From Magnetococcales bacterium (GTDB taxonomy: Bacteria; Pseudomonadota; Magnetococcia; Magnetococcales; UBA8363), in assembly GCA_015228975.1 (NCBI GenBank), contig JADGCN010000010.1:1-55906 (forward strand): DNA of 55,906 bases, written 5' to 3'. Below the pieces are notes generated by a model, which did not search any database, was not told the DNA's origin, and was given only the letters and a program-made list of their open reading frames with translations. Positions 5,002 through 55,678 of the stretch are shown in pieces (the stretch's first letter is position 1; every line of letters starts with the position of its first letter). The position numbers and the translations under genes are program-made.

Positions 5002-6438
5002 ATGTGGACAGCACCTCCGTTTAAAAGAACGCCCTTGGGAACCCTGGTTACCGAAGCCAGAAAAGGGGTTGAAGATCTCCTTTATCTCGCCATGGACCGG
5101 CGGGTACGTCTGGCGGTGACCGGTCTGAATCAATCGGGCAAGACCGTTTTCATCACCTCCCTGATTCACCAATTATTGATGGGGGCGCGCCTGGGGGGAT
5201 TACCTTTTTTCCAGGTGGTCGCCGAAGGACGGTTTCAAGGGGCCAAGACCGTTTTGCAACCTTCCATGAACATTCCCACTTTCCGCTACGACCAATATTT
5301 GGAATCCTTGACAGCCACCCCTCCCCAATGGCCCAAAGCTACCGATGGCATCAGCGAAATACGACTGGCCATTCGCTTTCGCCCCAAGGGACTCCTGCAA
5401 AGTCGCCTGAAGACAACCAACACGATCTTCCTGGACATCATCGATTATCCCGGGGAATGGCTTCTGGACCTGCCGCTTTTGGGGCAAAGTTTTCAGGAGT
5501 GGTCCAAAGAGGTCGTGACCCTGTGCCGCACCGAACCCCGACACACCCTGGCGCAACCCTGGTTGGCCTATCTCGGTGCTTTGAATCCCCGGCACAGTGC
5601 GGACGAAGGTGTGTTACGTCAAGCCAGTCGTTTGTTCACCGATTTCCTATTGGCCTGCAAACGGGAACCCATTGGATTGAACTATCTGCAACCGGGACGT
5701 TTTTTGATACCGGGTGATTTAAAAGATGCCCCTTTGCTGACTTTTTGCCCCATGCTCTCCCCAGAACCCTCCCTGGAACCGGGATCCCTGGTCCAGGTAA
5801 TGGCGGATCGTTTTGAATCCTACAAGGAATTGGTGGTACGGCGCTTTTATCACCAACATTTTTCCCATTTCGACCGGCAAATCGTCCTGGTTGACCTGTT
5901 GAAAGGATTGAATCGCGGACCCAACCATTTTGCCGACATGAGTCGTTCGTTGAAAAGCATTTTGAAAAATTTTGATTATGGCCGTTCCTCCATTTTGTCG
6001 CGTCTGTTGCGGCCAAAGATTGATCGTTTGTTGTTTGTCGCCACCAAATCGGATCATGTCGCCGCCAATCAGCACAACAATCTGGAACGCCTCCTCAAAC
6101 GCATCGTCACCGATCCCGTCAATGAGGCGAGCTTCTATGGCGTTGCCGTGGAAACCATGGCCATAGCCTCGATTGTTTCAACCGAAACCGTCGTCAAGGA
6201 ACACGAAGGGCGGCGATTGTCGTTTGTCCGCGGACGCCCCAAGGGACGCAACGAGGAGGTGTTGTTGTTTCCCGGTGAAATCCCGGAAAAGATTCCCAAG
6301 CCAGAGGAATGGCATCAGGAACGCTTTAATTTTCTGGAATTTGAACCTGTCATTGCCCGAAATGACAGCGATGATCGACTGCCCCACTCACGATTGGATC
6401 TGGTACTCGACTTTTTGTTGGGAGACAAAGTGACGTGA
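5002..6438 (+). CDS. ycjX: YcjX-family P-loop GTPase-like protein (DUF463)
   Basis: A 478-residue member of the DUF463/YcjX family, whose members are stress-linked and of unclear role. The P-loop GLNQSGKT lies at residues 41-48. The family hallmark DIIDYPGEWLLDLPLL follows the expected Walker B position, and ATKSDH near residue 350 resembles the specificity motif of a GTPase. It shares a 4-bp overlap (GTGA) with the next gene, the same order as ycjX-ycjF in E. coli, so the pair is one translational unit. A role at the inner membrane through its partner is likely. The ATG lacks a strong ribosome binding site. Confidence 0.9.
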   Translation: MWTAPPFKRTPLGTLVTEARKGVEDLLYLAMDRRVRLAVTGLNQSGKTVFITSLIHQLLMGARLGGLPFFQVVAEGRFQGAKTVLQPSMNIPTFRYDQYLESLTATPPQWPKATDGISEIRLAIRFRPKGLLQSRLKTTNTIFLDIIDYPGEWLLDLPLLGQSFQEWSKEVVTLCRTEPRHTLAQPWLAYLGALNPRHSADEGVLRQASRLFTDFLLACKREPIGLNYLQPGRFLIPGDLKDAPLLTFCPMLSPEPSLEPGSLVQVMADRFESYKELVVRRFYHQHFSHFDRQIVLVDLLKGLNRGPNHFADMSRSLKSILKNFDYGRSSILSRLLRPKIDRLLFVATKSDHVAANQHNNLERLLKRIVTDPVNEASFYGVAVETMAIASIVSTETVVKEHEGRRLSFVRGRPKGRNEEVLLFPGEIPEKIPKPEEWHQERFNFLEFEPVIARNDSDDRLPHSRLDLVLDFLLGDKVT

Positions 6439-7517
6439 CCCCCTCCAAAAACTGGGCCGCCCCCCTGGAACTGCCGGTTACCGCCGAACCAGACCAACCC
6501 AAGGAGTCACCCGTTGCCCCGGTTGAACTCCCATTCAACCCGGATGCCGACCAGGTCCACCTGGAGCGGGAGCAGGAGATACCCGACAGCCATCACCAAT
6601 CGCACTCCGGGGTCAGGATCAAACGTCTTTTTCGCAACAGGGCCCTGTTCTGGCTGTTTGTTGGTGGACTGTCCTGGCTGGCGGGGATCTGGATAGAGGA
6701 TATTTATTATTTTTTGTGGCGGCAATTCCAGGTCCATTGGGCGTTGGGATCGATATTTTCACTCCTGACAGCCGCAACCGTACTCTCTGCCGTCGTCATC
6801 CTGGCTGGGGAAATGGGGGAATTGACACGCCTGAAAAGATTTGACGTCATGCGTCACGATATCCAAGACCTGTGGCATGGGAGCGGCCATGGTGCCGGTG
6901 CGAAACTGACCGTGCGCCTGCGCCGTGGGGTCACCCAGGAAGAGTGGTTGGAACCGGCATGGCGACAATTCCACCACCTGGCCCAAAGTCATCACAGCGA
7001 CCGCGAATTATTGGAATTGTTGTCCCGAACCGTCTACGCCCAACTGGACCAACGCTGCTACCACCTCATCGTCCAAAGGGGTACCATGACCGCCGTGGCT
7101 TCGACCATCATCCCATTCGTATGGTTGGACAGTCTGATCTTCCTGTGGCAAAACCTGCGGCTGATTCGCGAAATCGCCCAATGTTATGGTCTGAAACCGG
7201 GTTGGTCGGGCAACCTTTTTTTGGCCCGGGATGTCCTGTTGGGATTGTTCATGGCGGGGACTGCCGATCTGATGGTGGACAAGGTGGCCGAAGCGGTGGG
7301 TGGTCACGCCGCCAGCCGGGTACTCGCGCAGTTGGGGAAAGGGGCGGCCAACGCCCTGTTCACGGCCCGCATTGGCATGGCTGCCATGAACCGTTGTCGC
7401 ACCCTGCCATTTCATCCCGGAGGGGAACCTTCCCTGGAACGCTTGCGGGTCAAACTAATCGAAACCATCAAACGATCCCTGGAACAAGAGGGCGGTAAGC
7501 CAATCGCGCTGCCTTGA
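6435..7517 (+). CDS. ycjF: YcjF-family inner membrane protein (DUF697)
   Basis: A 360-residue protein of the YcjF/TIGR01620 family. A proline- and acid-rich cytoplasmic N-terminus of about 70 residues is followed by two transmembrane segments (about residues 72-95 and 102-128). A long helical region and a C-terminal DUF697 domain rich in hydrophobic helices follow (about residues 215-330). The GTG start overlaps the ycjX stop by 4 bp, indicating translational coupling. The conserved pairing with ycjX suggests a membrane anchor or effector for that NTPase, but the family's function is not settled. Confidence 0.88.
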   Translation: MTPSKNWAAPLELPVTAEPDQPKESPVAPVELPFNPDADQVHLEREQEIPDSHHQSHSGVRIKRLFRNRALFWLFVGGLSWLAGIWIEDIYYFLWRQFQVHWALGSIFSLLTAATVLSAVVILAGEMGELTRLKRFDVMRHDIQDLWHGSGHGAGAKLTVRLRRGVTQEEWLEPAWRQFHHLAQSHHSDRELLELLSRTVYAQLDQRCYHLIVQRGTMTAVASTIIPFVWLDSLIFLWQNLRLIREIAQCYGLKPGWSGNLFLARDVLLGLFMAGTADLMVDKVAEAVGGHAASRVLAQLGKGAANALFTARIGMAAMNRCRTLPFHPGGEPSLERLRVKLIETIKRSLEQEGGKPIALP

Positions 7518-8900: not shown

Positions 8901-9593
8901 ATGCACACGAAAAACACCTTGCAACGCAAAGCCCGCCTCTCCCAACTGATCGCCGAAACCGGCAGTGCTGCGGAAGTGGCACGCCAAGCGGGTACCGGTC
9001 GCAGTTATCTGAGCCAGATCATCGGCTCCAAAGGAAAGCGTAACCTGGGAGACCTGTTGGCGCACCGTTTGGAGGATGCCTTTGGCAAACCCAGGGGGTG
9101 GATGGATCGAGAGGAGGTTCCTGCTGCGGACAGCGGCCCTCTGCTCTCCGACTTCTTGGATGGGGACGATCCAGGGGATTTCGTCAAGATCCCCCGTTTG
9201 GAGGTTGCGGCCAGCCTGGGCACGGGATCGATCACCCCGGAAGAAGACAATATCAAGGGATATTTGGCTTTCAGAAACATATGGTTGCAAAAACGCCGGC
9301 TCAATCCGCGCTTTCTCACCATTATCGACGCCGTTGGCGATTCGATGCACCCCACCATCCACGACGGCGATGTCCTCCTGGTTGACTTGCGACAGAAGGA
9401 ACCCCAGGATAATGGCATTTTCGTGCTGCGTTTGGACAACCAACTCTACGCCAAACGGCTGCACACCCGTCCTGGTCGGGAAGTTGTCGTTCATTCCGAC
9501 AATCCCGCCTCCCCCCCTTTTCCCATTGCACTGGGTCGCACCCAGGGGGTGGACATTATTGGTCGCGTTGTTTGGGCGGGGCGAGATCTGTAA
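8901..9593 (+). CDS. XRE/S24-family LexA-like repressor (phage CI type)
   Basis: An N-terminal helix-turn-helix (about residues 10-60, SAAEVARQAGTGRSYLSQII) is joined to a C-terminal S24 peptidase domain. The catalytic serine is in VGDSMHPTI (about residue 149) and the lysine in YAKRL (about residue 188), the dyad that drives RecA-stimulated self-cleavage in LexA and CI-type repressors. The cleavage-loop region before the serine is diverged. No phage structural, integrase or excision genes surround it, so it is either a relic or a host regulator of a stress regulon. The stop lies 3 bp from the convergent trpC stop. Confidence 0.88.
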   Translation: MHTKNTLQRKARLSQLIAETGSAAEVARQAGTGRSYLSQIIGSKGKRNLGDLLAHRLEDAFGKPRGWMDREEVPAADSGPLLSDFLDGDDPGDFVKIPRLEVAASLGTGSITPEEDNIKGYLAFRNIWLQKRRLNPRFLTIIDAVGDSMHPTIHDGDVLLVDLRQKEPQDNGIFVLRLDNQLYAKRLHTRPGREVVVHSDNPASPPFPIALGRTQGVDIIGRVVWAGRDL

Positions 9594-9596
9594 TAA

Positions 9597-10418
9597 TCAC
9601 GCGGCGCATTCCGCCAACAGGCGACCCAGGGCGGCCCCCGGATCACGATCCGTCATGAGCGCACTGCCGATCAGAAACACCTGGATCCCCCGTGAGGCGA
9701 GCCTTTGCAAATCCTGGCCGGTTTGAATACCACTTTCCGCCACGACGATGCGCCCCGGCTCCACCCTGGCCGCCAACGCCAGGCTGCGTTCCAAGGAAGT
9801 GGTGAACGATTTCAGATTGCGATTGTTGATCCCCAGCAAAGGGGTCTTCAAGTCGTGCGCCACCGCCAGTTCCGCCTCGTCATGCACCTCCACCAGGACG
9901 TCCAAACCCAGTTCCAGGGCGGCGGCTTCCAGTTCCAGGGCTTGAACCGGTGACAAGACCGCCATGATCAGCAAAATGGCATCGGCACCCAAAGCACGGG
10001 ATTGCACCACCTGATAGGGATCATACAAGAAATCCTTGCGCAACACCGGCAACGTCCCCCCACGTCGCAACAGGGGTAAGAATGCATCGGAGCCTTGGAA
10101 ATAATCACGATCCGTCAAGCAGGAGAGACAGGCCGCCCCATGGGAATCATACCCACGGGCAATGGCAAGGGGATCGAACGCCGCGTCATCCCCGGGAAAA
10201 ATACGACCTTTGGAGGGGGAAGCCCGTTTGATTTCGGCGATAACGGCGCGTCCGGTCTGATCTCGTTTTTCTTTAATAGTGTTAATGAACCCGCGTGGTG
10301 CCCCCCATTCGGCACACTGGTCCAACAAATCTGTTTCGCTGAAAGAGCGCCTACTCTGAGCCACTTCCTCGCGTTTGGTTGCCATGATCCGCTCAAGAAT
10401 GGTACCCCGAATGCTCAT
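9597..10418 (-). CDS. trpC: Indole-3-glycerol phosphate synthase
   Basis: TrpC closes the indole ring from carboxyphenylamino-deoxyribulose phosphate, the fourth step of tryptophan synthesis. TIM-barrel signatures are clear: AEIKRASPSKG near the N-terminal catalytic lysine, LRKDFLYDPYQV, GINNRNLKSF and AESGI for phosphate binding. It is a monofunctional TrpC of 273 residues with no fused TrpF. The chosen ATG at 10418 has GGGAG 4 nt upstream, better than the in-frame codon at 10439. It is the last gene of trpEGDC, 22 bp after trpD. Confidence 0.97.
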   Translation of the reverse strand: MSIRGTILERIMATKREEVAQSRRSFSETDLLDQCAEWGAPRGFINTIKEKRDQTGRAVIAEIKRASPSKGRIFPGDDAAFDPLAIARGYDSHGAACLSCLTDRDYFQGSDAFLPLLRRGGTLPVLRKDFLYDPYQVVQSRALGADAILLIMAVLSPVQALELEAAALELGLDVLVEVHDEAELAVAHDLKTPLLGINNRNLKSFTTSLERSLALAARVEPGRIVVAESGIQTGQDLQRLASRGIQVFLIGSALMTDRDPGAALGRLLAECAA

Positions 10419-42193: not shown

Positions 42194-42372
42194 TTCTACT
42201 TTGTCACATTTCCAGTTCGGAGTGTGTGGCCCCCCCGATTCAACCCTCGGGGGCAGGCTCTGGATTCCCGCTTTCGCGGGAATGACTGCTAACCTCTCCA
42301 ACGGATTTCCTGCTTCGTCATTCCCGCGAAAGCGGGAATCCAGAGCGTATGTTCCAATGTGACAAAGTAGAA
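42194..42372. mobile_element. MITE-like nested palindrome, copy B
   Basis: The perfect 17-bp terminal inverted repeats TTCTACTTTGTCACATT (42194-42210) and its complement (42356-42372) enclose perfect 30-bp inverted arms at 42257-42286 and 42317-42346. A further hairpin lies near 42232-42254 (CCCCGA...TCGGGG). CTAC flanks both ends (42190-42193 and 42373-42376), consistent with a 4-bp target duplication. The right CTAC supplies the TAG stop of the histidine kinase. No coding capacity. The core arms match copy A at 30514-30593. Confidence 0.75.
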
Positions 42373-45300
42373 CTACGATTCCAGATCGATCGCCTCCTCT
42401 TTCGCCCAAGCACGGAACAGCATGATACATGTTTCATAATCATATTTGCCTAGCGCAACTTTTATTGTTTCTATCTTTTCTCGACGCCTGCCACTCAATA
42501 TAAAAGCACCGATTTCTTCCAAAACATTTTCAACGGATGTGTCATAGGCAAGAAGAAGTACTATGGCCTGATTCAATAAAAGAGACAAATCTTCCAAACC
42601 GATCTCAATACCAGATTGGTTCTCATTTAAAGCCAAGATTTCTGGTTGTATCAATGTGCTTTCGATCGTTGAAACGATTCGCGCCAGTTCACAGGCCGTT
42701 GTACCAAACAATTTACGCAACTCCTTCATACCCTCTGGATTCCGCGACTGTTTTTCAATTTTTCCCGCAAGACCAGATAATTCCAAGGCCCCTATGGTAG
42801 CCGATACCCCTTTCAGCGTATGGGCTGCCCGTTCCAACATCAAAATATTGCCCGAAGCCCAACACCGTTCCATTTCCTGACAGGCACCCCCCTGGTTGTG
42901 GGCAAACATAAGCAAAACGTTGCGGTAAAGCACCGTATTGCCTCCAACATTGCGCAAACCCCTGGCCAAATCTATTCCTGGAATGGGTGGTAGTGGCAAC
43001 ACAATATCCTTGCCGCGTCCAACAGATTGCGCAACCATATCCCGGGAAATCAAGTCGGACTGACTGGGAAACCATTTGGCAAGAGTGGCATACATTTCGT
43101 CCGGGTCTACTGGTTTGGCGATATGGTCGTTCATACCTGCTTGCAAACATCTTTCCCGATCACCTGCCATGGCATTGGCGGTCATGGCGATAATAGGCAA
43201 TTCTTCGGCGCTCATTTTTTTCCGAATGCGTTGGGTAGCGGTCAGACCATCCATGACCGGCATCTGAAGATCCATCAATATGCCGTCAAATGGTTCCTTA
43301 TCCAACAGCCTAATGGCCTCAAGACCATTATTGGCGACAACAACCACAGTGCCTGCCTGTTCCAATAATTCTTGCGCAACCTGCTGATTAATAAGATTAT
43401 CCTCGACAAGGAGCAATTTAAGCCCTGCCAAATTGGCACGATGGGTATTTGAATAATACATCGTCTGCCTGATAGGCTCATATCCAAATGCGATCATGAT
43501 AACGTCCAGAACGGCGTTGATGGTGACCGGTTTCATCAAAAAACCATTCAGAAGTTTCTTTTCTTCTTCCGTCGTGGCAATGTATTCCTGACCATAGGCG
43601 GTCACCATGATAACGGCTGGTATTTCATTTAAAGGTAACTCTTTTTTGATGCGCCGAGCCACCTCCAGGCCGTTCATCCCAGGCATTTTCCAGTCCATGA
43701 ATACAAGATCGAAAGGAGAACCCTCCGTATCAGCATGCGAGAGTACCTGGATGGCACTCTCGCCACTTCCGACGCTGACCGGTTGATAGGCCAGAGATAT
43801 CAATTGTTCAGAAATGATCTTTCGAGCACTTGCATTGTCATCCACCACCAGAATGCGCAAGCCGCTAATACCTTCCGCAGGTACGAGAGGTTGTATTTCC
43901 GGACCATCAGCCTTATTGAAGCGAGCGGTAAATATAAAACGACTGCCGTGCTCCGACTCATTTTCAACACAGATCTGACCATCCATCATCTCAACCAAAC
44001 GCTTACTGATCGCAAGACCCAATCCAGTTCCGCCGTATTTCCTGGTAATGGAAGCATCTCCCTGGGAAAACTCCTGGAACAATCGGCTCATCTGTTCCGG
44101 TGTCATGCCAATACCGGTATCCCGAACCGTAAATTGCAAAAATACGCTGTCTCGTGTCTCCTCCAATACCTCTGTTATGATAGTAACCTCTCCTGTTTCC
44201 GTAAATTTAATCGCGTTGCCCGCCAGATTGGTTAAAATTTGCCCCAGACGATGAGAATCTCCTCTCAGAGCATGAGGTACATCCTTCTTGGTATCCAGCA
44301 AAAACTCCAAACCTTTTTCATGGCTTTTGACACTCAAAATAGCCACCACGCCTCCCAAAACATCATCGAGAATGAATGCAACATTCTCCATGGTCAGCTT
44401 GCCCGCTTCAATCTTGGAAAAGTCCAGGATATCATTGATTAATTGCAGAAGAACATTGGCACTGACGCTGACCTTGGATAGATAATCCCTTTGCTGTCTG
44501 GTCAATTCTGTATGAAGACAAAGATGGGTTAATCCAATCACGCCATTCATGGGAGTACGGATTTCGTGACTCATCGAGGCAAGAAATTCCGATTTGGCAA
44601 GATTAGCCCTTTCCGCTATGGATCTGGCACTCTCCAATTCAGCGTTTTTATCTTGCAGTACCTGATCCAGGCGCTTGCGTTCACTCATGTCACGCACAGC
44701 GGCTAATACACCCTGAAGCTTCCTGTCCCGATCATAAATGGTTGTCGCATGCAGGGATACAGGTGTTTTTTTCCCATCCATGGCCCAGACAGTAAGTTCG
44801 TAGTCGATGACCTTTTTTTCCCTCAGGACCAGACTGATGCTGGCCTCAGCGCGTTCCGGGTCATTAAAGTGATTCCTGAACGGTGAACCAATCAACTCAT
44901 CACGCGTACAACTGGTAATGGCCTCCATCTGCTTGTTGGCATCGGTAATAATGCCGGAGGGATTCGTAATAATCAGTGCGTCAATACTGGATTCAATAAG
45001 GGAGCGCGTGTAGAATTGCTGGTCCCTGACACGCTGATCAAGTTTCTTCTGTTCCGCTTCGACCTGTTTGCGTGCGGTGTTGTCCGTGCCAATCAGCAGA
45101 TAGCCAATGATCGTGTTTTCATCATCACGCAACGCCGTTACCGACACAACGGCTGGAAATCGACTTCCATCCTTGCGGATATAGGTCAGTTCATAAATAT
45201 CCTCTATCCCACGCGATGCCTTGAAGACCAGGGCCTCAAATCCTGGCGTGATCGGTGTGGAAAGTTCGATGCTCAAGGCCTTGGCACGGGCAACCACTTC

Positions 45301-45990
45301 ATAGGGATCAGAAATGTCGGCGGGAGTGATTTTGTTCATCACTTCCACGGCTGCATAACCCAGCATGCGTTCGGCACCAACATTGAATATTTGGATCACC
45401 CCCTTGGCATCGGTGGCAATGCTCGAAAAATTGGCACTGTTGAAAATCGCGTTTTGCAGAGCCCCCGCCTTGAGCAGCGCTTCTTCCGCTTTTTTACGTG
45501 CGGTGTTATCCGTGCCGATCAGCAGATAGCCAATGACCGTGTTTTCATCATCACGCAACGCCGTTACCGACACAACGGCTGGAAATCGGCTCCTGTCCTT
45601 GCGGATGTAAGTCAGTTCGTAAATATCCTCTATCCCACGCGAAGCCTTGAAAACCAGGGCCTCAAACCCTGGCGTGATCGGCGTCGAGAGTTCGATGCTC
45701 AGACTCTTGGCACGGGCAACCACTTCCTGGGGGTCGGAAATATCGGCTGGGGTGATCTTGTTGATCACTTCCGCCGCTGCATAACCCAACATGCGTTCGG
45801 CACCTACATTGAATATTTGGATCACCCCCTTGGCATCGGTGGCAATGCTCGAAAAATTGGCACTATTGAAAATTGCGTTTTGCAGAGCACCCGTTTTCAG
45901 CAATGCCTCTTGACGACAATCCTCGGAAATGCTCTCCATTGTACCCGCATCTGCACTAATATTATTTAAGTCATGTATTTGGTGTGGCAC
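42373..45990 (-). CDS. Soluble hybrid histidine kinase: PAS-PAS-PAS-HisKA-HATPase-REC-REC-HPt
   Basis: A 1205-residue phosphorelay protein without membrane segments, so it senses inside the cell. Domains: PAS (about 31-172), a near-identical second PAS (173-310), a third PAS (about 320-445), HisKA with the phospho-His in SMSHEIRTPMNG (about 475) and an HATPase with GGTGLGLAIS. REC1 follows (Asp in FMDWKMPG, about 765), then REC2 (LMDLQMPVMDG, about 907) and HPt (HTLKGVSATIG, about 1056). The unorthodox set allows a full internal four-step relay. The PAS ligands are not deducible. The GTG start has GGAGG 7 nt upstream. The stop TAG is at the edge of the MITE-like element. The partner regulator is unknown. 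Confidence 0.93.
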   Translation of the reverse strand: MPHQIHDLNNISADAGTMESISEDCRQEALLKTGALQNAIFNSANFSSIATDAKGVIQIFNVGAERMLGYAAAEVINKITPADISDPQEVVARAKSLSIELSTPITPGFEALVFKASRGIEDIYELTYIRKDRSRFPAVVSVTALRDDENTVIGYLLIGTDNTARKKAEEALLKAGALQNAIFNSANFSSIATDAKGVIQIFNVGAERMLGYAAVEVMNKITPADISDPYEVVARAKALSIELSTPITPGFEALVFKASRGIEDIYELTYIRKDGSRFPAVVSVTALRDDENTIIGYLLIGTDNTARKQVEAEQKKLDQRVRDQQFYTRSLIESSIDALIITNPSGIITDANKQMEAITSCTRDELIGSPFRNHFNDPERAEASISLVLREKKVIDYELTVWAMDGKKTPVSLHATTIYDRDRKLQGVLAAVRDMSERKRLDQVLQDKNAELESARSIAERANLAKSEFLASMSHEIRTPMNGVIGLTHLCLHTELTRQQRDYLSKVSVSANVLLQLINDILDFSKIEAGKLTMENVAFILDDVLGGVVAILSVKSHEKGLEFLLDTKKDVPHALRGDSHRLGQILTNLAGNAIKFTETGEVTIITEVLEETRDSVFLQFTVRDTGIGMTPEQMSRLFQEFSQGDASITRKYGGTGLGLAISKRLVEMMDGQICVENESEHGSRFIFTARFNKADGPEIQPLVPAEGISGLRILVVDDNASARKIISEQLISLAYQPVSVGSGESAIQVLSHADTEGSPFDLVFMDWKMPGMNGLEVARRIKKELPLNEIPAVIMVTAYGQEYIATTEEEKKLLNGFLMKPVTINAVLDVIMIAFGYEPIRQTMYYSNTHRANLAGLKLLLVEDNLINQQVAQELLEQAGTVVVVANNGLEAIRLLDKEPFDGILMDLQMPVMDGLTATQRIRKKMSAEELPIIAMTANAMAGDRERCLQAGMNDHIAKPVDPDEMYATLAKWFPSQSDLISRDMVAQSVGRGKDIVLPLPPIPGIDLARGLRNVGGNTVLYRNVLLMFAHNQGGACQEMERCWASGNILMLERAAHTLKGVSATIGALELSGLAGKIEKQSRNPEGMKELRKLFGTTACELARIVSTIESTLIQPEILALNENQSGIEIGLEDLSLLLNQAIVLLLAYDTSVENVLEEIGAFILSGRRREKIETIKVALGKYDYETCIMLFRAWAKEEAIDLES
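45063..45900 (-). repeat. Tandem duplication encoding two PAS domains
   Basis: Segments 45900-45489 and 45474-45063 encode 136-residue stretches that differ at about seven positions, with a repeat period of 426 bp. The near-identity at both DNA and protein level indicates a recent in-frame duplication within the histidine kinase gene. Confidence 0.85.
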
Positions 45991-46379: not shown

Positions 46380-47621
46380 ATGGCTGACAGCAACGCATCC
46401 GACCTGATCGCCGGACTGGATTGTGGTGCGCACACGATCAAGTGTGTCATTGCCAGGACATCGGAAGACTACCAGCCGCAAAGAATCGTTGGCTTTGGAG
46501 TAACTCCCTCGCAAGGTATCGACCACAACAGCGTCATCGTCGATCTGGAACTGGCGGGACAAGCGTTCCATAAAGCGGTTACGCAAGCGGAAAACATGGC
46601 TGGTGGTCAAGTCAGCGCCTTGCGCATCGGTCTGTCGTCCAAGGATATCGAATCGTTCTCCGCCCTGGGGATCATCCCCATTGCCGGGGGGGAGGTCTTG
46701 GACACCGACCTGGAACAATTGATGGATTCAACCCGGCATAGCCGCCAAGTGGGTAAACACCTCCTCCACCTGTTACCCAAAAAGTTTTTCCTCGACAAAA
46801 AGGAGGTTGCCAATCCCATGGGCTTGTCGGGTCACCGACTGGAAGGGCATTTCCATGTGGTGACTTGCCAACAATCGACCTTCAACCATGTCATCGACGC
46901 CGTTCTGCATGCCGGCATGGATGTCGAGGATGTCCTGTCCTCCTCATTGGCGGCCTGCATGGCGGTTTCCCCTGTCGATCATTCCGGACATGCCACGACC
47001 TGTTCCATTGACCTGGGCCATGCCGCGACCGGGATTGTTTTACGCCAGGGTGGACATTTTTTTCATTCGGCGCGCCTGCCCATGGGTGGACGCCACATCA
47101 CCAGTGATATTTCGCAAATCTTCGACCTGGCCCCATCCCTCGCCGAACAGGTGAAACTGACCTTCGGTCATGCCAGTGACGAACAACCGGTTGCAACCAA
47201 TCTGGATAACAAAAAAAACAGCGAAACATCCATCAAAAATGTCCTGCTCGACCCGCGTTTGACCCAGGTGATTGCGGCCCGGATCGAGGAAATCCTCTTT
47301 GAAGTCAAAAAGGTCACCCATTCCCAACTGGCTTCCGCCCCGTTGGATTGTATCTTCCTCACCGGCGGCGGTTCCCAACTCCATGGCATCCGGGATTACG
47401 TGGAGGATATCTTTGGGGCACCCGTCAGTCCCAACGCCTTCGCCCATCCTTCCCCCGTCGCCAACCTGGTCCGCAGACCCTATCTGGCTGCCGCCGTGGG
47501 TCTCCTCGACGCTAGGCAAAATTTTGGTGATTGGCGATCCTTGGAATTTCGCCAAAGCGACGAACGCAAAAAACCGGGACTCTTGAGAAAAGCCTATTTT
47601 TTCCTGAAAGAAAAGATGTAA
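46380..47621 (+). CDS. ftsA: Cell-division protein FtsA
   Basis: Actin-fold protein that tethers FtsZ filaments to the membrane. The N-terminal GLDCGAHTIKCVIAR is the phosphate-1 loop. The SHS2-like 1C region follows (VSALRIGLSSKDIESF), then DLGHAATGIV as phosphate-2 and LTGGGSQLHGI as the adenosine loop. The C-terminus GLLRKAYFFLKEKM is the amphipathic membrane-targeting helix. At 413 residues it is the typical length. The ATG at 46380 has GAGG 6 nt upstream. Unusually there is no ftsQ before it or ftsZ after it. Its 3' end is duplicated in degenerate form at 49251-49362. Confidence 0.9.
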   Translation: MADSNASDLIAGLDCGAHTIKCVIARTSEDYQPQRIVGFGVTPSQGIDHNSVIVDLELAGQAFHKAVTQAENMAGGQVSALRIGLSSKDIESFSALGIIPIAGGEVLDTDLEQLMDSTRHSRQVGKHLLHLLPKKFFLDKKEVANPMGLSGHRLEGHFHVVTCQQSTFNHVIDAVLHAGMDVEDVLSSSLAACMAVSPVDHSGHATTCSIDLGHAATGIVLRQGGHFFHSARLPMGGRHITSDISQIFDLAPSLAEQVKLTFGHASDEQPVATNLDNKKNSETSIKNVLLDPRLTQVIAARIEEILFEVKKVTHSQLASAPLDCIFLTGGGSQLHGIRDYVEDIFGAPVSPNAFAHPSPVANLVRRPYLAAAVGLLDARQNFGDWRSLEFRQSDERKKPGLLRKAYFFLKEKM

Positions 47622-47833
47622 TCCCGTGTTGTCCTGATCCCAATCGAACATCTATAATAACGCAGGCCCAAGTTACCGGAACAAACCCATCATGGGGATG
47701 TTCGTGTACCCCACGGACGATTCCACGGCCTTTTGTTGCAATACCCTGACAGCGTCCCTGAATGTCCGTGCAACGGACGCCCGTACCATCCCGTATCCGT
47801 CCCACCATCCCCTCAAGCGATGGATATACCCAG

Positions 47834-49195
47834 ATGACTCGCAACAAATCACCAAACAAACTGACCAAACTGCTCGTTTACTGGTTTGTCGATTACAATC
47901 CCCTGTACTTTTTCAGCGCATTGTGTGTACTGGCCGGGGTCATGCTGGTATCGCAAAACCTGGGTGACCTGGTCGGTGGCAACGATGGCTGGGCGCGAAT
48001 CATCCTGTTCTGGATTGTGCAATCCTACGAATGGCTGCTGATCGCCTCGGCATACCTGCTGTTTCACATCGCCCGGCAACGCCGTCCCGGGATCATTCTG
48101 GGATTGATGGCGATCTTTTTTCTGTATGACAACACCTTCCGGCTGGAAAACATCGCCGATCTGGAAATGGCAGGCCGTTTGTTAACCACACTGTGGATCA
48201 TCCTGGCTGTGATCAAGCTATGGGCATTGGCGAAAACGTTCCATATCACCCTGTCGCCCGTACTCTACGGCATCATGATTTCCGGGACGATCGGGGTGGG
48301 ATGTTTGCCAATGCTCCTGACCTTGACCGCGGAAAAAAACAAGGCGGTGATCTTCACGCTGGCATCCTGGTATGGCTGGGGTTTGCTGGCGACACTCCTC
48401 CTGGTCCGTCCCCCATGGGACTCTCTTCTGCCCTTGAATGCCTGGGGACGCACGGTCATGAACCGATGTCTGCGCGCCACCTTGGGAATCTTCACCGGCT
48501 TTTATTTCTACCACCTTTGGAACCATATCCTCTGGATCGGCCCTCATGGCGACAAGGTGATCATTCCGCAACTGATCGCCCCATTTCTGCTCATAATCCT
48601 CACTGTCAAGAAGGACAACGCAGCCCTTGTCAGCGGTGTTGTCGTCATGCTGGCCGCCTTCCATGTTCACACGTTCTTTTCGCTCATCGCCTTGATTGTC
48701 GGCATCTGCTTCGGCTTGCGGGCCTGGATGAAAGGACCCCATTGGCTGGCATTGGTCGCCGTGCTTTATTTTTACCTGGCCGGATGGACCTTGGGATGGA
48801 CCGAGGGACAGAACTTTCCACATGCGCCCGGTTGGTACTCATGGCAAACGCTAACCGCCGAAACGGCCCTGTTGTTCCTGAGCTGGTATTTGCGTCTATT
48901 GCCCACCCCGGTCATCGTCGCGGGTGCCGCCATCACCGTCCTTGTCATCGGTACCAAGCATTTTTTTGCCACGATCATGGCCTTCCTCGCCCGTTTCCTC
49001 CCCAAAACAACCGCCGGTTGGGGCGTTGTGCTGCTGTCCGTCGGATTCCTGGCGTTGATTGCCGGTGTGTTGATCAATTGGATGGTCAGCAAAAGGACAC
49101 AGACCCCCGTCCGCGATCCCTTGTCGCAAGAACAACCATGCGAGGAAGGGGGGATCATCAACCCCAGCCATTCGCAGGAGCCACCACGTGGGTAA
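47834..49195 (+). CDS. Polytopic membrane protein of unknown function
   Basis: A 453-residue protein with about 11 or 12 hydrophobic helices from residue 15 to 430 and a short hydrophilic, Pro/Glu-rich cytoplasmic tail. I cannot assign it to a family. Charged and polar spots inside the bilayer region include YDNTFRLENIADLE (about residues 98-111), HLWNHILW and HVHTFF, which could bind a ligand or metal. The ATG at 47834 is chosen because the first helix starts shortly after; the frame is open 24 codons further and there is no good ribosome binding site. The gene is bracketed by ftsA and the degenerate second copy of the ftsA 3' end. Confidence 0.65.
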   Translation: MTRNKSPNKLTKLLVYWFVDYNPLYFFSALCVLAGVMLVSQNLGDLVGGNDGWARIILFWIVQSYEWLLIASAYLLFHIARQRRPGIILGLMAIFFLYDNTFRLENIADLEMAGRLLTTLWIILAVIKLWALAKTFHITLSPVLYGIMISGTIGVGCLPMLLTLTAEKNKAVIFTLASWYGWGLLATLLLVRPPWDSLLPLNAWGRTVMNRCLRATLGIFTGFYFYHLWNHILWIGPHGDKVIIPQLIAPFLLIILTVKKDNAALVSGVVVMLAAFHVHTFFSLIALIVGICFGLRAWMKGPHWLALVAVLYFYLAGWTLGWTEGQNFPHAPGWYSWQTLTAETALLFLSWYLRLLPTPVIVAGAAITVLVIGTKHFFATIMAFLARFLPKTTAGWGVVLLSVGFLALIAGVLINWMVSKRTQTPVRDPLSQEQPCEEGGIINPSHSQEPPRG

Positions 49196-49250
49196 CACGA
49201 TGAGGTAGGTTATCGGAAGATTGCCACAGCGAGATGAACAGGTAAATGAC

Positions 49251-49362
49251 TTGGCGATCCTTGGAACGCCACCAAAGCGACGAACTTAATAAACCGGGAC
49301 TCTTGAGAAAATCCTATTTTTTTCCTGAAAGAAAAGATGTAATTCAATGCTGTCTTGATCCC
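49251..49362 (+). pseudogene. Degenerate duplicate of the ftsA 3' end
   Basis: This 112-bp segment aligns with 47531-47641, the last 30 codons of ftsA plus about 20 bp beyond the stop. Shared blocks include TTGGCGATCCTTGGAA, CCAAAGCGACGAAC, AAACCGGGACTCTTGAGAAA and CCTGAAAGAAAAGATGTAAT. Substitutions and a one-base insertion in the T-run break the frame before the stop, so it is a non-coding remnant. It is the only thing I see in the gap 49196-49453 besides the next gene's promoter region. Confidence 0.85.
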
Positions 49363-49453: not shown

Positions 49454-50089
49454 ATGCCCGAAGCAACAACTTTCGCCGACCTCTGGGACTATTTGCTGGA
49501 AACCAAGCGCCTGTTCCGCGAGCAAAGCGCAGAAACTGACAGGAAATTCCAGGAAACTGACAGAAAATTCCAGGAAACTGACAGAAGGCTCCGGGAATCC
49601 TTGGAGAAAACCTGGGCGCAACTGCAAGAAACAGATCGTGTGGTCAAGGATGTCTCCCGACAAATAGGCAATCTGGGTGGTAAATGGGGACAATTTGTCG
49701 AAAACATGATCGCCCCCGCTTGTGAAACTTTGTTCGCCCAGCGTGGTATCCCGGTACACGAAGTCCACCAACGGGTCAAACTCAAGCATGATGACGGTCG
49801 CCACATGGAAATCGACATCATGGTGGTCAACAACAATGCCGTGGTCCTGGTGGAGGTCAAAAGCACCCTGACGGTCGCGGATGTCCGTCAATTTAAAAAG
49901 ACCATTGCCTCATTCAAAGAATTCCGGCCACTCTACAAAGATTTCCGGGTTATGGGAGCGGTTGCGGGAATCGTCATCGAAGAGCAGGCCGACGACTACG
50001 CCAGAAACCAGGGGCTGTTCGTGATCGCCCAATCGGGTGACAATGTGGTTCTGGCCAATGAGGACACATTCAAGCCCCAGGTCTGGTAG
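49454..50089 (+). CDS. Coiled-coil protein with PD-(D/E)XK nuclease-like domain
   Basis: A 211-residue protein. Residues about 20-75 form a coiled coil built partly on a seven-residue repeat (KFQETDR twice, then RLRESLE). Residues 90-205 resemble DUF3782/restriction-endonuclease-like folds: an acidic strand pair MEIDIMVVNNNAVVLVEVKS gives the D...E-x-K core, with an upstream glutamate in GQFVENM. It may be a nuclease or an inactive relative; such proteins are common in bacteria with multiple paralogues and have no settled function. It stands alone. The ATG follows TTGAGCGT. Confidence 0.75.
   Translation: MPEATTFADLWDYLLETKRLFREQSAETDRKFQETDRKFQETDRRLRESLEKTWAQLQETDRVVKDVSRQIGNLGGKWGQFVENMIAPACETLFAQRGIPVHEVHQRVKLKHDDGRHMEIDIMVVNNNAVVLVEVKSTLTVADVRQFKKTIASFKEFRPLYKDFRVMGAVAGIVIEEQADDYARNQGLFVIAQSGDNVVLANEDTFKPQVW
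49532..49594 (+). repeat. Three 21-bp tandem repeats inside the coiled-coil coding region
   Basis: Three units begin with GAAACTGACAG (49532, 49553 and 49574). The first two differ by one base and the third has diverged. Each unit encodes one heptad, so copy-number change would lengthen or shorten the coiled coil without shifting frame. Confidence 0.85.
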
Positions 50090-51058: not shown

Positions 51059-51099
51059 GGAACCCAGATGGGGCGAAAATTCGAAGAAAATTTTATAAT

Positions 51100-51726
51100 T
51101 CAGGGTATGGTTTTATGCGGCTCGGTAATTTGCACCCATGGATTATCAAGAAATTTAAAGAATGTTGTCACGGTCCTAAAGTCTGGAAATCTCCAAGAAA
51201 ATGTATAAACAATCTCTTTCATTTTTTTCTCAAGCTTTCCATCTGGTATATAGTCTTCTGAGTGTTCAAGAAATGAGTCTTCATCAATACCTTTGCTCCC
51301 GATAATTTTCTGTATATCATAGACCCACATCATTGTTAGTCCAACACGTAGAGCAAGGACCGAATTAATCATATATACATCTTCGCTTGTTATAAGGTTG
51401 ACACGCGACAAAAATTGAACGGGCCGCAACCTGTTAATCCAGCATGCCAACGCCGCACCTTTTTTAAAATGAGAGGGACCTTCTGAAAGGTCATGGAAAG
51501 TGTCACTCCTCTTGAGATCCAAATATGCGGAATCAATTGCTGAAATTAAGATATACTCGTCAAGACGTAAAACTCCGCTTACATCACCACTCGTTAAACC
51601 TCTCTTGACCATCCCCTCGTAGATCCTTACTGTTCTATTGAAACTGTTTCTGCGAAATTTCTCTGCGTTCTCTTCAGCAAGTGTTTCTTTAATATACTCA
51701 CTAGTAAGTTTTGATGGAAATATCAC
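51100..51726 (-). CDS. Protein of unknown function in AT-rich insert
   Basis: About 208 residues, soluble and helical, with no domain I recognise. Segments worth noting are YILISAIDSAYLDLKR, FKKGAALACWINRLRPVQFL and a C-terminal WRFPDFRTVTTFFKFLDNPW. Base composition is clearly lower in G+C than in neighbouring genes, suggesting acquisition by transfer. The start is taken as the GTG at 51726 with AGGAG 8 nt upstream; an earlier GTG at 51735 overlaps that ribosome binding site. It follows a 65-residue protein gene by 80 bp, and the two look like a small operon. A toxin/antitoxin or defence role is possible but not shown by any motif. Confidence 0.6.
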   Translation of the reverse strand: MIFPSKLTSEYIKETLAEENAEKFRRNSFNRTVRIYEGMVKRGLTSGDVSGVLRLDEYILISAIDSAYLDLKRSDTFHDLSEGPSHFKKGAALACWINRLRPVQFLSRVNLITSEDVYMINSVLALRVGLTMMWVYDIQKIIGSKGIDEDSFLEHSEDYIPDGKLEKKMKEIVYTFSWRFPDFRTVTTFFKFLDNPWVQITEPHKTIP

Positions 51727-51806
51727 GAAATTCACTCCTTACAATAAATATAATAAATAATTGCAAACCCACCCCATCCGGACATAATTAAGACTCCCGC
51801 ATAAAT

Positions 51807-52004
51807 CTAGATAAGCTTATCCAATACTTTACTTATTGCATTAAAGACCTTCTCGCTTTCTTCTTCTGGACATTTCCAATCTCCTTCATTACTTGTAACA
51901 TGGGCAGCGGTGTTGGTCCCATTTTTTAATAGATGTTCCAAGTAGCTATCAGCAGAGCCTATTTCGGAACTAGGTTGAGCTGCTGGTCGGTCTGTCTTGG
52001 CCAT
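51807..52004 (-). CDS. Small acidic protein (65 residues) of unknown function in AT-rich insert
   Basis: A 65-residue protein with a disordered, Ser/Ala/Pro-rich N-terminal third, a central short helix (SYLEHLL), a single cysteine in DWKCPEEESE and an amphipathic C-terminal helix KVFNAISKVLDKLI. The ribosome binding site AGGAG at 6 nt is strong, supporting translation. It is upstream of and co-oriented with the 208-residue gene. Small size, acidity and position would suit an antitoxin, immunity protein or peptide precursor, but I recognise no family. The 252 bp upstream of it (52005-52256) are AT-rich and hold no further gene I can support. Confidence 0.55.
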   Translation of the reverse strand: MAKTDRPAAQPSSEIGSADSYLEHLLKNGTNTAAHVTSNEGDWKCPEEESEKVFNAISKVLDKLI

Positions 52005-52256
52005 AGTCGTCTCCTTATTTTATTTCTCCAGACTCACTCCCCGCTGAATTCACAAGCCAGGGAGAACTTCAAAGAGGATCGGCCGAAAAGCCTTCCCCCA
52101 AAACTGCACAGCCTCATACTTTATCAAAAGGCCCTTTCTCAGGCAAGCCCATATCTTCTAACAACCTATCATATTGTCCGTTTCTTCGCTTTTGCTATTT
52201 TGAAGTGCCTATAACAAAAGAACTTAAATTTAAATATGATTGTTTCAGTCAGATCG

Positions 52257-53504
52257 TTAAGGAAAGGTCGCCCGGATCAACCGGGAAAGATCGTCGGCGA
52301 CCCAATCGACGCCCTGTTGTGACCAATGGCCATCGACGTTCAGGTAAGCCCCGCGCACCCCCTTTAGCACAGGATTGAAATCATGGAAGGCAATGCCGTC
52401 CCGGATCAGGCGTTCGCGCAGGAGTTCCGTTGCCCGGGACTGCCGATGACCCAATCGATCAAGGTCACCAAACAGCGACCAGGTTTCGACGTACCGGGGA
52501 TCCACATGCAAGCCCATGGGGACGAACAAAACCGTCAACTTAACGTGCGCCGCATCGCATACCCGTTTGATGGCCAGGATATCGGGATAAATCCCTGTCA
52601 CCATGGTATCCGGGGATACCGCGTCTATTTTCAAGGATTCTCCAACGGCCAGGCGGAACAAATCGTCAAACATGTAACTGCGAAACAGACCGCCGTCGGG
52701 ATGGCGCAGGGCCGTCAACAAGGCGGCACTTTCAGGACGCTGCAAAACCTTGAGCAAGCGTTCCCGTTTTTCTCCAGAAAACTTGGAATAATCCAGGAGA
52801 AACTGGCGGGCCTCCGCGTCGCTCAAGGTTTGCAAACGTTGCATCATCTCTTGTTCCTGTTGGTGCAGGGTCGTTTCCTGATCGACCTGCCACACCCGCA
52901 AACCATTGCGATGGCGATTGGTCACCAAATGATTCAGCGCCAGGAGTCCCGTGCGGGAAGCCAGGGAATCTTTGGGGTAGGTGGTAAAAATGGCCAGGCG
53001 GGTGGAATGTTTATCGGGGACGAAATCGTTGCCTTCGTAGAAGAAGAGATAAATAGCGTGCGCCCCGAGGGGGATGACCACATTTTTAATGCGATAATAA
53101 TAGTCTGCGACACCGGTCGCGGAGACGCCGAAATTAACCACCTCCACATCCTTGCGTCCCAGTTTGTTTTCCACCGCCATCGGGATGGGAATCGGGGCGG
53201 ACTCCTCCACGAAGGAATCTCCGACAAACGCAATCCGTTTCACATGTTTGGGAGGTTGTACATCCCGTTGCCGATCCCGTTGTCCCCAATCGTTGAATCC
53301 CTGGCCCCCCTGAACCTGAAGCACCCGCCCCCAACCCCGTACCCCTATTTCCGGTTTAACCCCGTGCAAGCCGATGATGGGAAAGGGTGGAACAAACCAG
53401 GAGGCAACTTCATTGGCCCCATACAACGAGAGAACAATGGCCAAAACCGACAGGATCCCGATCAATGAAACCTTATACACAGGTCTTTCAAAACGATTAT
53501 CCAT
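52257..53504 (-). CDS. SGNH/GDSL-type hydrolase, membrane-anchored
   Basis: A protein of about 415 residues. An N-terminal membrane anchor (about residues 10-32) leads to a periplasmic SGNH domain: block I FVGDSFVEES with the nucleophile serine, block II NFGVSATG, block III FYEGNDF with the asparagine, and block V DGHWSQQG with the Asp-His pair. An inserted helical region (about 200-300) is unusual in length. AlgX/AlgJ-like relatives acetylate or deacetylate exopolysaccharides, which suits this polysaccharide region. The start at 53504 has AGGA 5 nt upstream; ATGs at 53531 and 53540 are alternatives. It is 49 bp after the glycosyltransferase gene. Confidence 0.78.
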   Translation of the reverse strand: MDNRFERPVYKVSLIGILSVLAIVLSLYGANEVASWFVPPFPIIGLHGVKPEIGVRGWGRVLQVQGGQGFNDWGQRDRQRDVQPPKHVKRIAFVGDSFVEESAPIPIPMAVENKLGRKDVEVVNFGVSATGVADYYYRIKNVVIPLGAHAIYLFFYEGNDFVPDKHSTRLAIFTTYPKDSLASRTGLLALNHLVTNRHRNGLRVWQVDQETTLHQQEQEMMQRLQTLSDAEARQFLLDYSKFSGEKRERLLKVLQRPESAALLTALRHPDGGLFRSYMFDDLFRLAVGESLKIDAVSPDTMVTGIYPDILAIKRVCDAAHVKLTVLFVPMGLHVDPRYVETWSLFGDLDRLGHRQSRATELLRERLIRDGIAFHDFNPVLKGVRGAYLNVDGHWSQQGVDWVADDLSRLIRATFP

Positions 53505-53553
53505 CGCATCCTGATTTTCCGAGATACCCATCCGTCGCATACCCCCAGAAGCA

Positions 53554-54510
53554 CTACAACCATTCCAGAGCATAACAGTAATCCACGTCGGGAAGGTCGG
53601 CAAGCGACCGTACCGTATGGAACGACTTCCCTTTGTACAGGGTATCCATCCAGGCATGGATATCCTGGCCAAACAATTGGCTGTAGCCCATTCGGGGTTC
53701 CGATCTCAAGGTACGGGGCAATGGTTGGATCACCAGGGTCGGACGCCCGAGGGCATGGGCTGGATAATGGGTGAACGTGGACATGGGTGAGCCAATGATG
53801 ATGGGGCAACAGGCCAGGGTGAACAAATCCCGCAGCGGATTGGCATCGGCCTGATGCCCTTGGCGCTTGGGTCGGTAGGGGTTGTCCCGTGGTGCCTGGA
53901 TCAGGGGAAAGGAGTGACCGAGACGATTTTCTTCTTCTCGGGTCAGTCCATTATGGGCCAGGTAAAACACCACCTTGCCATAGCGGGTCATGATCCTCTC
54001 CATGGCGTATTCATACCACCACAGATTGACCTGCGAATGGATGTGGTGGGCAATGTCAAACACATCCCCATCGGGACCGGGTCGGTAGTCGCCCCGGCGT
54101 ATGTGGACGCCAACCACGATGGTATCGTTGCATGGGGTCAGTTGCTCGTGTATGGCGACGATGTGACGGGGATGCAGGCGCAATCGGGCCGCTGTCGCCA
54201 GATAGAGCCTTCTGTTGATCTGGGGGATGCCGCCAAACAATCCTTTTTGCATCAAAACCCGATGCCTGCCCAGCCGGGCGAATTCATCCGGCGTGGGGGA
54301 TGCAAAGCGTTTGGCACCCAGTTTCATCCACGGCCACAGCCTGCAAAATCTGGCACCTACGACACGCAAATCATCCGTTTCCGGCCAATCCAGCAACACT
54401 TCATGACCAAAATATTCTTGAAAAGCGAAACACAGGGGCAAGGCTTCCAAACGATTACACAACCCGGCGAACAGTGTTGAATAGACTTTTTTTTGCAACA
54501 TATCAGGCAT
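53554..54510 (-). CDS. HxRRGD-motif glycosyltransferase, fucosyltransferase-like (paralogue 2)
   Basis: About 318 residues, homologous along the whole length to the protein encoded at 50117-51058. Shared blocks are GLCNRLE, LCFA-QE-FGH, LDWPET, VGVHIRRGDY, YAMER, ACCPI and PMSTF. The HxRRGD motif and the PMSTF block are typical of GT11/GT23 fucosyltransferase-like enzymes. The start at 54510 overlaps the GT4 stop by 8 bp, giving translational coupling; an ATG at 54501 is the alternative. It likely adds one sugar of the polysaccharide repeat unit, with the paralogue adding another or the same sugar at a different position. Confidence 0.72.
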   Translation of the reverse strand: MPDMLQKKVYSTLFAGLCNRLEALPLCFAFQEYFGHEVLLDWPETDDLRVVGARFCRLWPWMKLGAKRFASPTPDEFARLGRHRVLMQKGLFGGIPQINRRLYLATAARLRLHPRHIVAIHEQLTPCNDTIVVGVHIRRGDYRPGPDGDVFDIAHHIHSQVNLWWYEYAMERIMTRYGKVVFYLAHNGLTREEENRLGHSFPLIQAPRDNPYRPKRQGHQADANPLRDLFTLACCPIIIGSPMSTFTHYPAHALGRPTLVIQPLPRTLRSEPRMGYSQLFGQDIHAWMDTLYKGKSFHTVRSLADLPDVDYCYALEWL

Positions 54511-55678
54511 GACGCCGACTCTGGGCCAATTGCATGGCCACACGATAGCTTTCTTCCAGGGAGGCCACACAGGCGGCAATGGTGAAGCGCTCGGCAATCG
54601 TCGCCTGTCCCGCCCGGGAGATCCTGGTTGTCAATCCGGGATCGCTGACCAGGCGCGCAATGGCTCGGGCCAATGCCTGCGGGCTGGATTCGTCGATCAG
54701 GAGGCCATTGACGCCATCCTCGACAACCTCGGGAATGCCACTGTGCCGTGTGGCGATGCTGGGGATGCCCCAGGCCATGGCCTCCAGCAAAGAATTGGGA
54801 ACGCCCTCCCGGTCGCCTCCAGAGGTCGTCCGGCTGGGATGGAGAAAAATATCGTAGTGCATGAAACCATCCAGCAAGGTTTGATTATCGACAAAACCGG
54901 GGAAATGAACCCATTGTTCCAGGTGTAAATCTTGAACCAACTTGCGCAATTCCTGTTCCCGCGGACCCGAACCCATCAACGTCAATTCGGCGGGAATACC
55001 CGCCTCGCGGACCAATCCCAAGGCGGTGATGGTCACATCCAAACCTTTTTTCTCGACAAAGCGACAGGCTTGGAGCAGACGCAACGGATGTTCCGCCGAA
55101 TATTCCCGGGACTGGCGCACGCCAAAGGACTCGGGCATGGGGACCCCGGTACGATTCATACGGATACGTTCCCCGGGACATCCCCGTTGCAACAATTCCT
55201 CCTTCAGGGAATCGCTGCGCACCAAAAACAGGTCCGTATGCCGTAATAATTGCTGAAACTCCTCTTCTTTCAGGTCATCCGACAGGTCGGCACCATGAAA
55301 AGAGACCACTTTGGGGCGTTGTTCCCGTTCGAGATAGGGCAACACCCGCACCGCTTCCGTCCCCAGATACACATGGACCACCTGCGCCCGCAGCCGCTCA
55401 ACCATCCGCAACATCTGCCGGGTCTCGTAGCCACTCATGGGAACGCGCCGCTTTTGCAGCCGGTACCACAAACGGGTCACAAACCGCCAGGGACTTTTTC
55501 GCAAAATCAGGAGACGATCAAAGGGGAAGCGTTCAGGATGCCTGCGACTGCGCGTGATCACCCACACGGCAAACGAGTGTACAGAGGTCACCTGGCGATA
55601 GACGTGCAACATTTCCGGCCTGAGAAAAGTCGCCAGGAACGAAACGGCAACAGCTCGATCATTCTCCACCTCAGTCAT
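54503..55678 (-). CDS. GT4-family glycosyltransferase
   Basis: A GT-B-fold retaining glycosyltransferase of about 391 residues. The C-terminal donor-binding half is classic: LMGSGPREQELRKL, then HPSRTTSGGDREGVPNSLLEAMAWGIP with the E-x7-E motif, and GIPEVVEDGVNGLL. FHGADLSDD in the N-terminal half is the acceptor-side loop seen in colanic-acid-type (WcaL/AmsK) enzymes. It is cytoplasmic or membrane-peripheral. It is followed, with overlap, by the HxRRGD transferase and preceded by an asparagine synthase, a common gene set in exopolysaccharide loci. Start 55678 is an ATG; a GTG at 55690 is possible. Confidence 0.9.
   Translation of the reverse strand: MTEVENDRAVAVSFLATFLRPEMLHVYRQVTSVHSFAVWVITRSRRHPERFPFDRLLILRKSPWRFVTRLWYRLQKRRVPMSGYETRQMLRMVERLRAQVVHVYLGTEAVRVLPYLEREQRPKVVSFHGADLSDDLKEEEFQQLLRHTDLFLVRSDSLKEELLQRGCPGERIRMNRTGVPMPESFGVRQSREYSAEHPLRLLQACRFVEKKGLDVTITALGLVREAGIPAELTLMGSGPREQELRKLVQDLHLEQWVHFPGFVDNQTLLDGFMHYDIFLHPSRTTSGGDREGVPNSLLEAMAWGIPSIATRHSGIPEVVEDGVNGLLIDESSPQALARAIARLVSDPGLTTRISRAGQATIAERFTIAACVASLEESYRVAMQLAQSRRHA

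Follow-up and report, generated by a model that had tools for sequence, protein, structure and literature searches.

A membrane-protein gene between two copies of an ftsA2 gene end: probable insertion with long target duplication in a genus of Magnetococcales

Why should the 3′ end of an ftsA-type gene occur a second time, on the far side of a membrane-protein gene? This arrangement is found in the window analyzed here, the whole stretch of 55,906 nucleotides of contig JADGCN010000010.1 from a Magnetococcales bacterium (assembly GCA_015228975.1; genome G000). The end of the gene, copy A, recurs downstream as copy B, and the only gene between them encodes a polytopic membrane protein (Table 1). 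The repeat had been reported in an earlier note, and realignment with MAFFT and BLAST bore it out: in an alignment of 112 columns, A and B differ at 14, one of them a 1-bp indel within a run of T, which amounts to 87–88% identity, with an E value of about 1e-30 in a self-comparison of the region. Copy A comprises the final ~30 codons of the gene and ~20 bases beyond its stop. No third copy of A/B was detected in a search of the organism's own genome, where the next matches had E values above 0.3.

Table 1. Coordinates of the ftsA2 locus and of uninterrupted junctions in the window that are duplicated in relatives.
Feature	Position in the window	Strand	Remarks
ftsA2, second genus-restricted FtsA paralogue, 413 aa	46380..47621	+	TIGR01174 ftsA equivalog above cut-off; Pfam FtsA and SHS2
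Copy A, duplicated junction	47531..47641	+	functional ftsA2 3′ end and ~20 bp past stop; ancestral states common to congeners
Inserted segment X (1.6 kb)	47642..49250	+	between A and B; collinear in G005 up to window 49214
Cargo, polytopic membrane protein, 453 aa	47834..49195	+	hydropathy; sole gene between A and B
Copy B, duplicated junction	49251..49362	+	decaying, frame-shifted ftsA2 3′ end
Terminal 24 bp of B	49339..49362	+	kept in G005, where the remaining B is gone
NERD/PDDEXK_10-like protein, downstream neighbor after B	49454..50089	+	weak DUF3782 similarity; many family copies per genome
ycjX–DUF697 junction, uninterrupted	6370..6451		duplicated in G003 and G004 (76–83 bp) around phd(-parE); window coordinates converted from L171
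trpC–cI-like junction (convergent genes), uninterrupted	9585..9630		duplicated in G003 and G004 (41–46 bp) around Rpn-like DUF4351 gene; window coordinates converted from L178
FUT–SGNH junction, uninterrupted	53500..53650		duplicated in G004 (149 bp, 92%) around CCDC90/XhlA-like coiled-coil gene
GT–FUT junction, single copy ("empty")	54459..54519		duplicated in G005 (61 bp, 100%) around Rpn-like DUF4351 gene

The repeated gene had been named simply as ftsA in the earlier note. Its membership in the FtsA family was confirmed, but the gene is not the canonical one, which lies elsewhere in the genome (G000:C189:14017-15129), adjoins ftsZ, and is ~29% identical to the stand-alone gene in the window, here termed ftsA2. 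Outside G000, orthologues of ftsA2 (68–99% identity) were found in five genomes, all of this genus, the gene being present in six of the eight genus genomes, and a second FtsZ bearing an FtsZ_C domain was not found in the G000 genome, which is incomplete. Each relative carries a single ftsA2, and in G001, G004, G006, and G007 its end is likewise single and is followed by other genes. In G001 and G006 (loci L041 and L043), the orientation of ftsA2 with respect to a proline-rich repeat gene common to both is opposite, indicating that the ftsA2 neighborhood has also been inverted. Near ftsA2 in the window, a histidine kinase gene contains a 402-bp tandem duplication (window 45067-45893, 91% identity), probably of a PAS domain; the whole gene is missing at that place in G005.

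The state and origin of copy B were examined by comparison with the ftsA2 ends of the congeners. Relative to A, copy B is shifted out of frame by 1 bp, and at positions that are conserved in congeners it shows an A-to-S change and others, most of its changes being derived; B is therefore a non-functional, decaying copy of the ftsA2 end. The 55 bases upstream of B showed no ftsA homology (local alignment score of 4.5 versus a shuffle mean of 5.6), so that the left edge of B is sharp. Further, the identity of B to A is 88–89%, against only 64–72% for the corresponding ftsA2 end in G001, G004, or G007; B was thus copied from the resident ftsA2 after these lineages had branched off and is a copy made within the lineage, rather than a foreign ftsA end.

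The A/B differences also bear on the idea that the two copies are the template and variable repeats of a diversity-generating retroelement (DGR), or an artefact of assembly. A DGR has the same layout, with a repeat of a gene 3′ end farther downstream, and a DGR-like locus is present in G005; however, the 14 differences between A and B fall into eight types without an adenine bias, and no reverse transcriptase was found among the neighboring proteins searched against Pfam. A full-length B was seen in one metagenome-assembled genome (MAG) only, G000, together with a 24-bp remnant in G005, and both the divergence of the copies and the support from the independent G005 MAG argue against a k-mer join. 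We therefore consider either of these origins extremely improbable. The DGR-like locus of G005 (L077, G005:C107, 11477-11593, 13109-13225, and 13353-14345) comprises a gene end with a VAAPASTVDP motif, a second copy in which 12 of 21 differences are on adenines, and a reverse transcriptase (PF00078), and its repeat was set aside as a DGR-like template/variable repeat.

The membrane protein encoded between A and B gave no significant match in Pfam, NCBIfam, PADLOC, or PHROG, and neither the A-X-B DNA, searched against plasmid and phage collections, nor the protein, searched against plasmids, gave any match. The composition of its gene is ordinary (GC 0.553, GC3 0.706). An AlphaFold model based on two sequences had a mean pLDDT of 40 and was set aside. 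Among the 61 genomes searched, the gene was present in G000, in its close relative G005 (~95–96% between the two genomes; 96% for this gene), and as a 40% homologue in the distant G019. The relatives that carry a name are Magnetococcales MAGs; the genomes compared are all apparently draft assemblies, at least three of them MAGs by title. Since the gene at this locus is confined to G000 and G005 among the congeners, it appears to have been inserted. In G005, ftsA2 is followed by the membrane gene in the same order as in G000, and A is retained, while window 49215-49338 is replaced by ~4.56 kb encoding a 3-dmu-9_3-mt/glyoxalase-type protein, a 175-aa protein with sub-threshold Pfam matches only, and a histidine kinase. 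Homology resumes within B, at its final 24 bp, and B is thus older than the split between G000 and G005. An undisturbed junction between ftsA2 and the downstream gene was not found in the relatives, the gene after B lying away from ftsA2 in G001, G004, G006, and G007, and the pre-insertion state at ftsA2 is therefore one that we infer. Taken together, these data favor, with a probability of about 0.68 by our own estimate, an insertion that placed the membrane gene just behind ftsA2 in the ancestor shared by G000 and G005 and duplicated about 112 bp of the target junction. An integration that left the ftsA end intact, as the earlier note had proposed, is thus retained, given the restricted distribution of the cargo and the lineage-born, decaying duplicate. 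The comparison of relatives that it had called for upheld the expectation in part, as the membrane gene is missing from the other congeners, but no empty junction came to light.

The note had also raised a tandem duplication followed by loss. In that case a segment containing ftsA2 would have been duplicated and then reduced, leaving the membrane gene as a piece of the old neighborhood; the direct repeat of a gene end, and the duplication in the nearby histidine kinase gene, agree with such a history. It would not, however, explain why the membrane gene is missing from the other congeners, and neither a decaying ftsA2 upstream of B, where ftsA homology stops at the left edge, nor an ancestral second full-length ftsA decaying in the relatives was seen. 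In addition, the parallel events described below have clear empty sites. We regard a plain tandem duplication as quite improbable.

Five further insertions with the same anatomy as the ftsA2 case were found in the genus, each consisting of a gene at a gene–gene junction between direct copies of that junction (J) of 41–149 bp, and undisturbed junctions for all five exist in relatives (Table 1). The five cargoes comprise three Rpn-like DUF4351 genes, one phd(-parE) toxin-antitoxin locus, and one coiled-coil gene. At the GT–FUT junction of G005, the cargo is a gene of 321 aa that matches DUF4351 weakly at its C terminus, and the J copies are identical at 61 of 61 positions; a third, partial copy of this junction is found on contig C55 of G005, with another DUF4351 gene ~0.8 kb off. 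At the FUT–SGNH junction of G004, the cargo is a 120-aa coiled-coil gene, and the duplicate includes the FUT end as well as the SGNH start. At the ycjX–DUF697 junction, a phd antitoxin gene is present in G003 and G004, with a parE toxin gene additionally in G004, and the two flanking genes abut in G000, G001, G005, G006, and G007. The genes trpC and cI, separated in G003 and G004, are adjacent in G000, G002, and G005. Finally, the fdx–iscX junction is duplicated in G003 and G004 (97 bp, 94%) around a DUF4351 gene, which is degenerate in G003, and fdx and iscX abut in G001, G002, G005, G006, and G007. The three G003/G004 events are each present in two assemblies. Random pairs of 420-bp windows from the same loci mostly scored about 10, compared with 61 at GT–FUT and 82 at fdx–iscX. 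From event to event the duplicated sequences are unrelated and differ in length, each of the six J sequences spans or touches a gene–gene boundary, and in two of the parallel insertions the duplication extends into the start of the following gene. The occurrence of the same anatomy with unrelated J sequences at five other junctions suggests a recurrent mode of gene insertion in the genus, and no attachment site specific to ftsA.

Integrase-mediated islands are known in the 3′ ends of protein genes, as for those of the icd and guaA type, and there likewise the gene stays intact while its end recurs beyond the insert. The ftsA2 3′ end could accordingly have served as an attB site, with the gene end restored and the integrase lost since; the repeat covers a gene 3′ end, as known integrase targets do, and cargo lies between the repeats. 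The earlier note had raised ftsA as a site-specific target, with other cargo bracketed by ftsA-end repeats and an integrase sharing the core to be looked for. This proposal was not supported: the ten tyrosine-recombinase matches (PF00589) in the genome are all on contigs other than that of the window, the core occurs at A and B only, and the insert is just 1.6 kb with a single membrane gene. Further, the parallel inserts, likewise tiny and of single genes, lie at unrelated junctions, two of them with the start of the next gene duplicated as well. A site-specific integrase is, in our judgment, very improbable at ftsA2.

In a homologous or homology-facilitated integration, a circular or linear piece of donor DNA with the ftsA2 3′ end beside the membrane gene would cross over at ftsA2 on one side, and one copy of the end would then stem from the donor. 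Such an event would also yield an a-J-X-J-b arrangement with variable J lengths, it is consistent with the preservation of both neighbors, and the base composition of the insert is ordinary. It needs, however, for each event, a donor that already carries the gene at the same place. Moreover, for the three events that were tested, the two copies of one event were closer to each other than to the copy of any other species, although in the case of fdx–iscX the identity within the event was barely above that to G007 (92 versus 91%), and the GT–FUT copies of G005 are fully identical. This route is thus considered unlikely, and insertion of the membrane gene with duplication of its target junction remains our preferred reading.

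Long duplications do not accompany every insertion at these loci. Comparison of the window with G005 revealed an insertion without a long duplication (window 51063-52253), where a low-GC (0.39) gene of 211 aa and a 65-aa ORF (window 51100-52004), both without a family match, are missing at that position in G005 and were inserted without a long flanking repeat. Insertion with a long duplication is therefore one mode among several.

The survey covered about 1.36 Mb of genus DNA and was deliberately enriched for sites of DUF3782 and DUF4351 genes. The fdx–iscX and trpC–cI cases were found since sites of Rpn-like genes had been fetched; the toxin-antitoxin and coiled-coil cases were chance finds, the GT–FUT case came from the comparison of G005 with the window, and the membrane gene was the starting case. 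Because of this enriched sampling, the apparent association with Rpn-like genes is no evidence on its own. Rpn-like DUF4351 genes are greatly expanded in the genus, with about 38–75 matches per genome in seven of the eight genus genomes and three in the incomplete G002. PDDEXK/DUF3782 genes, likewise expanded, with 5–36 matches per genome in the genus, were not generally bracketed by gene-end repeats, and their sites are mostly common to G000 and G005. Several other repeats were set aside, namely palindromic dispersed repeats (L079 and L082), self-tandem remnants of Rpn-like genes (L119, L121, L123, L139, L143, L145, and L150), and repeats inside or between related genes (L106 and L135). Inverted palindromic repeats of the type GTCATTCCCGCGAAAGCGGGAATCC, which is dispersed in the genome, are also present at window 42259-42344. 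A transposon with fixed ends made of an Rpn-like gene was likewise considered and rejected, as the insert at L142 consists of the ORF alone and thus has no fixed ends. An upstream sequence of ~150 bp is common to several Rpn-like genes (G005 GT–FUT, L118-L120, and L080 on G005:C55), and some genes with this shared upstream sequence also have a short stretch resembling the tRNA T-arm region (GGGTGCGAATCCCACCC).

The anatomy described above resembles insertion with long target duplication, a little-studied process that has been described for restriction-modification (RM) genes of Helicobacter pylori (Nobusato et al. 2000, Gene 259:99; Furuta et al. 2010; as outlined in PMC1643837, PMC3031569, and PMC3874152). 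In that mode a direct repeat of the target, tens of bases to ~150 bp long, lies on both sides of an insert that is absent from relatives, at unrelated targets and with variable repeat lengths, and the length range and the unrelated junctions found here agree with this, as do the 112 bp and 88% identity of the ftsA2 repeat and the narrow distribution of its cargo. A single uninterrupted target was found for the five parallel events, whereas the ftsA2 relatives have a single gene end with a different neighbor. The original cargoes were RM genes, which we do not take as defining; the six cargoes here are non-RM, no RM family having been recognized among those searched, and the host belongs to the Magnetococcales instead of being H. 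pylori. We file the ftsA2 case as a member of this class, with a cargo that is no recognized RM gene and with no empty site of its own found in the relatives. What is new is the host group and the non-RM cargo, the insertion mode itself having been described already.

The Rpn (YhgA-like, PF04754) nucleases of Escherichia coli promote RecA-independent recombination, for which template switching has been proposed, and the recombinants obtained were segmental replacements with no additions (PMC5350276). The cargo of three parallel events belongs to a multicopy family termed Rpn-like, but the cargo proteins tested match only the C-terminal DUF4351 in Pfam, without PF04754, and the ftsA2 event carries no Rpn gene. 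At the rpnC site of E. coli K-12 (panD-rpnC-panC), no flanking duplication was found, and a role of Rpn-like proteins in the insertions described here is therefore only a possibility. A wider proposal, that Rpn-like or PD-(D/E)XK proteins constitute a pathway active across the genus, inserting their own genes and, in trans, others at gene–gene junctions with target duplications of 40–150 bp, is distinctly unlikely.

How such a duplication may arise can be considered in terms of a conversion of a-J-b to a-J-X-J-b, in which X would be inserted at the junction J and both J copies would be direct. At ftsA2, copy A would stay on the gene and keep its 3′ end intact, and copy B would be left at the far side to decay. 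As the most likely step, we infer that foreign DNA X was copied by, or joined to, a broken or paused DNA end at J. This end would then have returned to the resident sequence tens of bases behind the point where it had left, with no dedicated integrase involved. The re-entry may have proceeded by template switching of a polymerase or by gap filling of widely staggered cuts, an enzymology deduced from the anatomy of the insertions. Selection may retain the insertions whose duplication spans a gene junction, because both neighbors then stay complete.

The entry of single genes into operons without a transposase or an integrase is poorly understood, and the ftsA2 locus probably preserves the footprint of one such entry. 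Together with their intact comparison sites, the five parallel cases provide several natural insertions within one genus, those of Rpn-like genes and a toxin-antitoxin locus among them. If the footprint is general, it would make a systematic search possible and would allow a test of whether nuclease genes drive their own spread.
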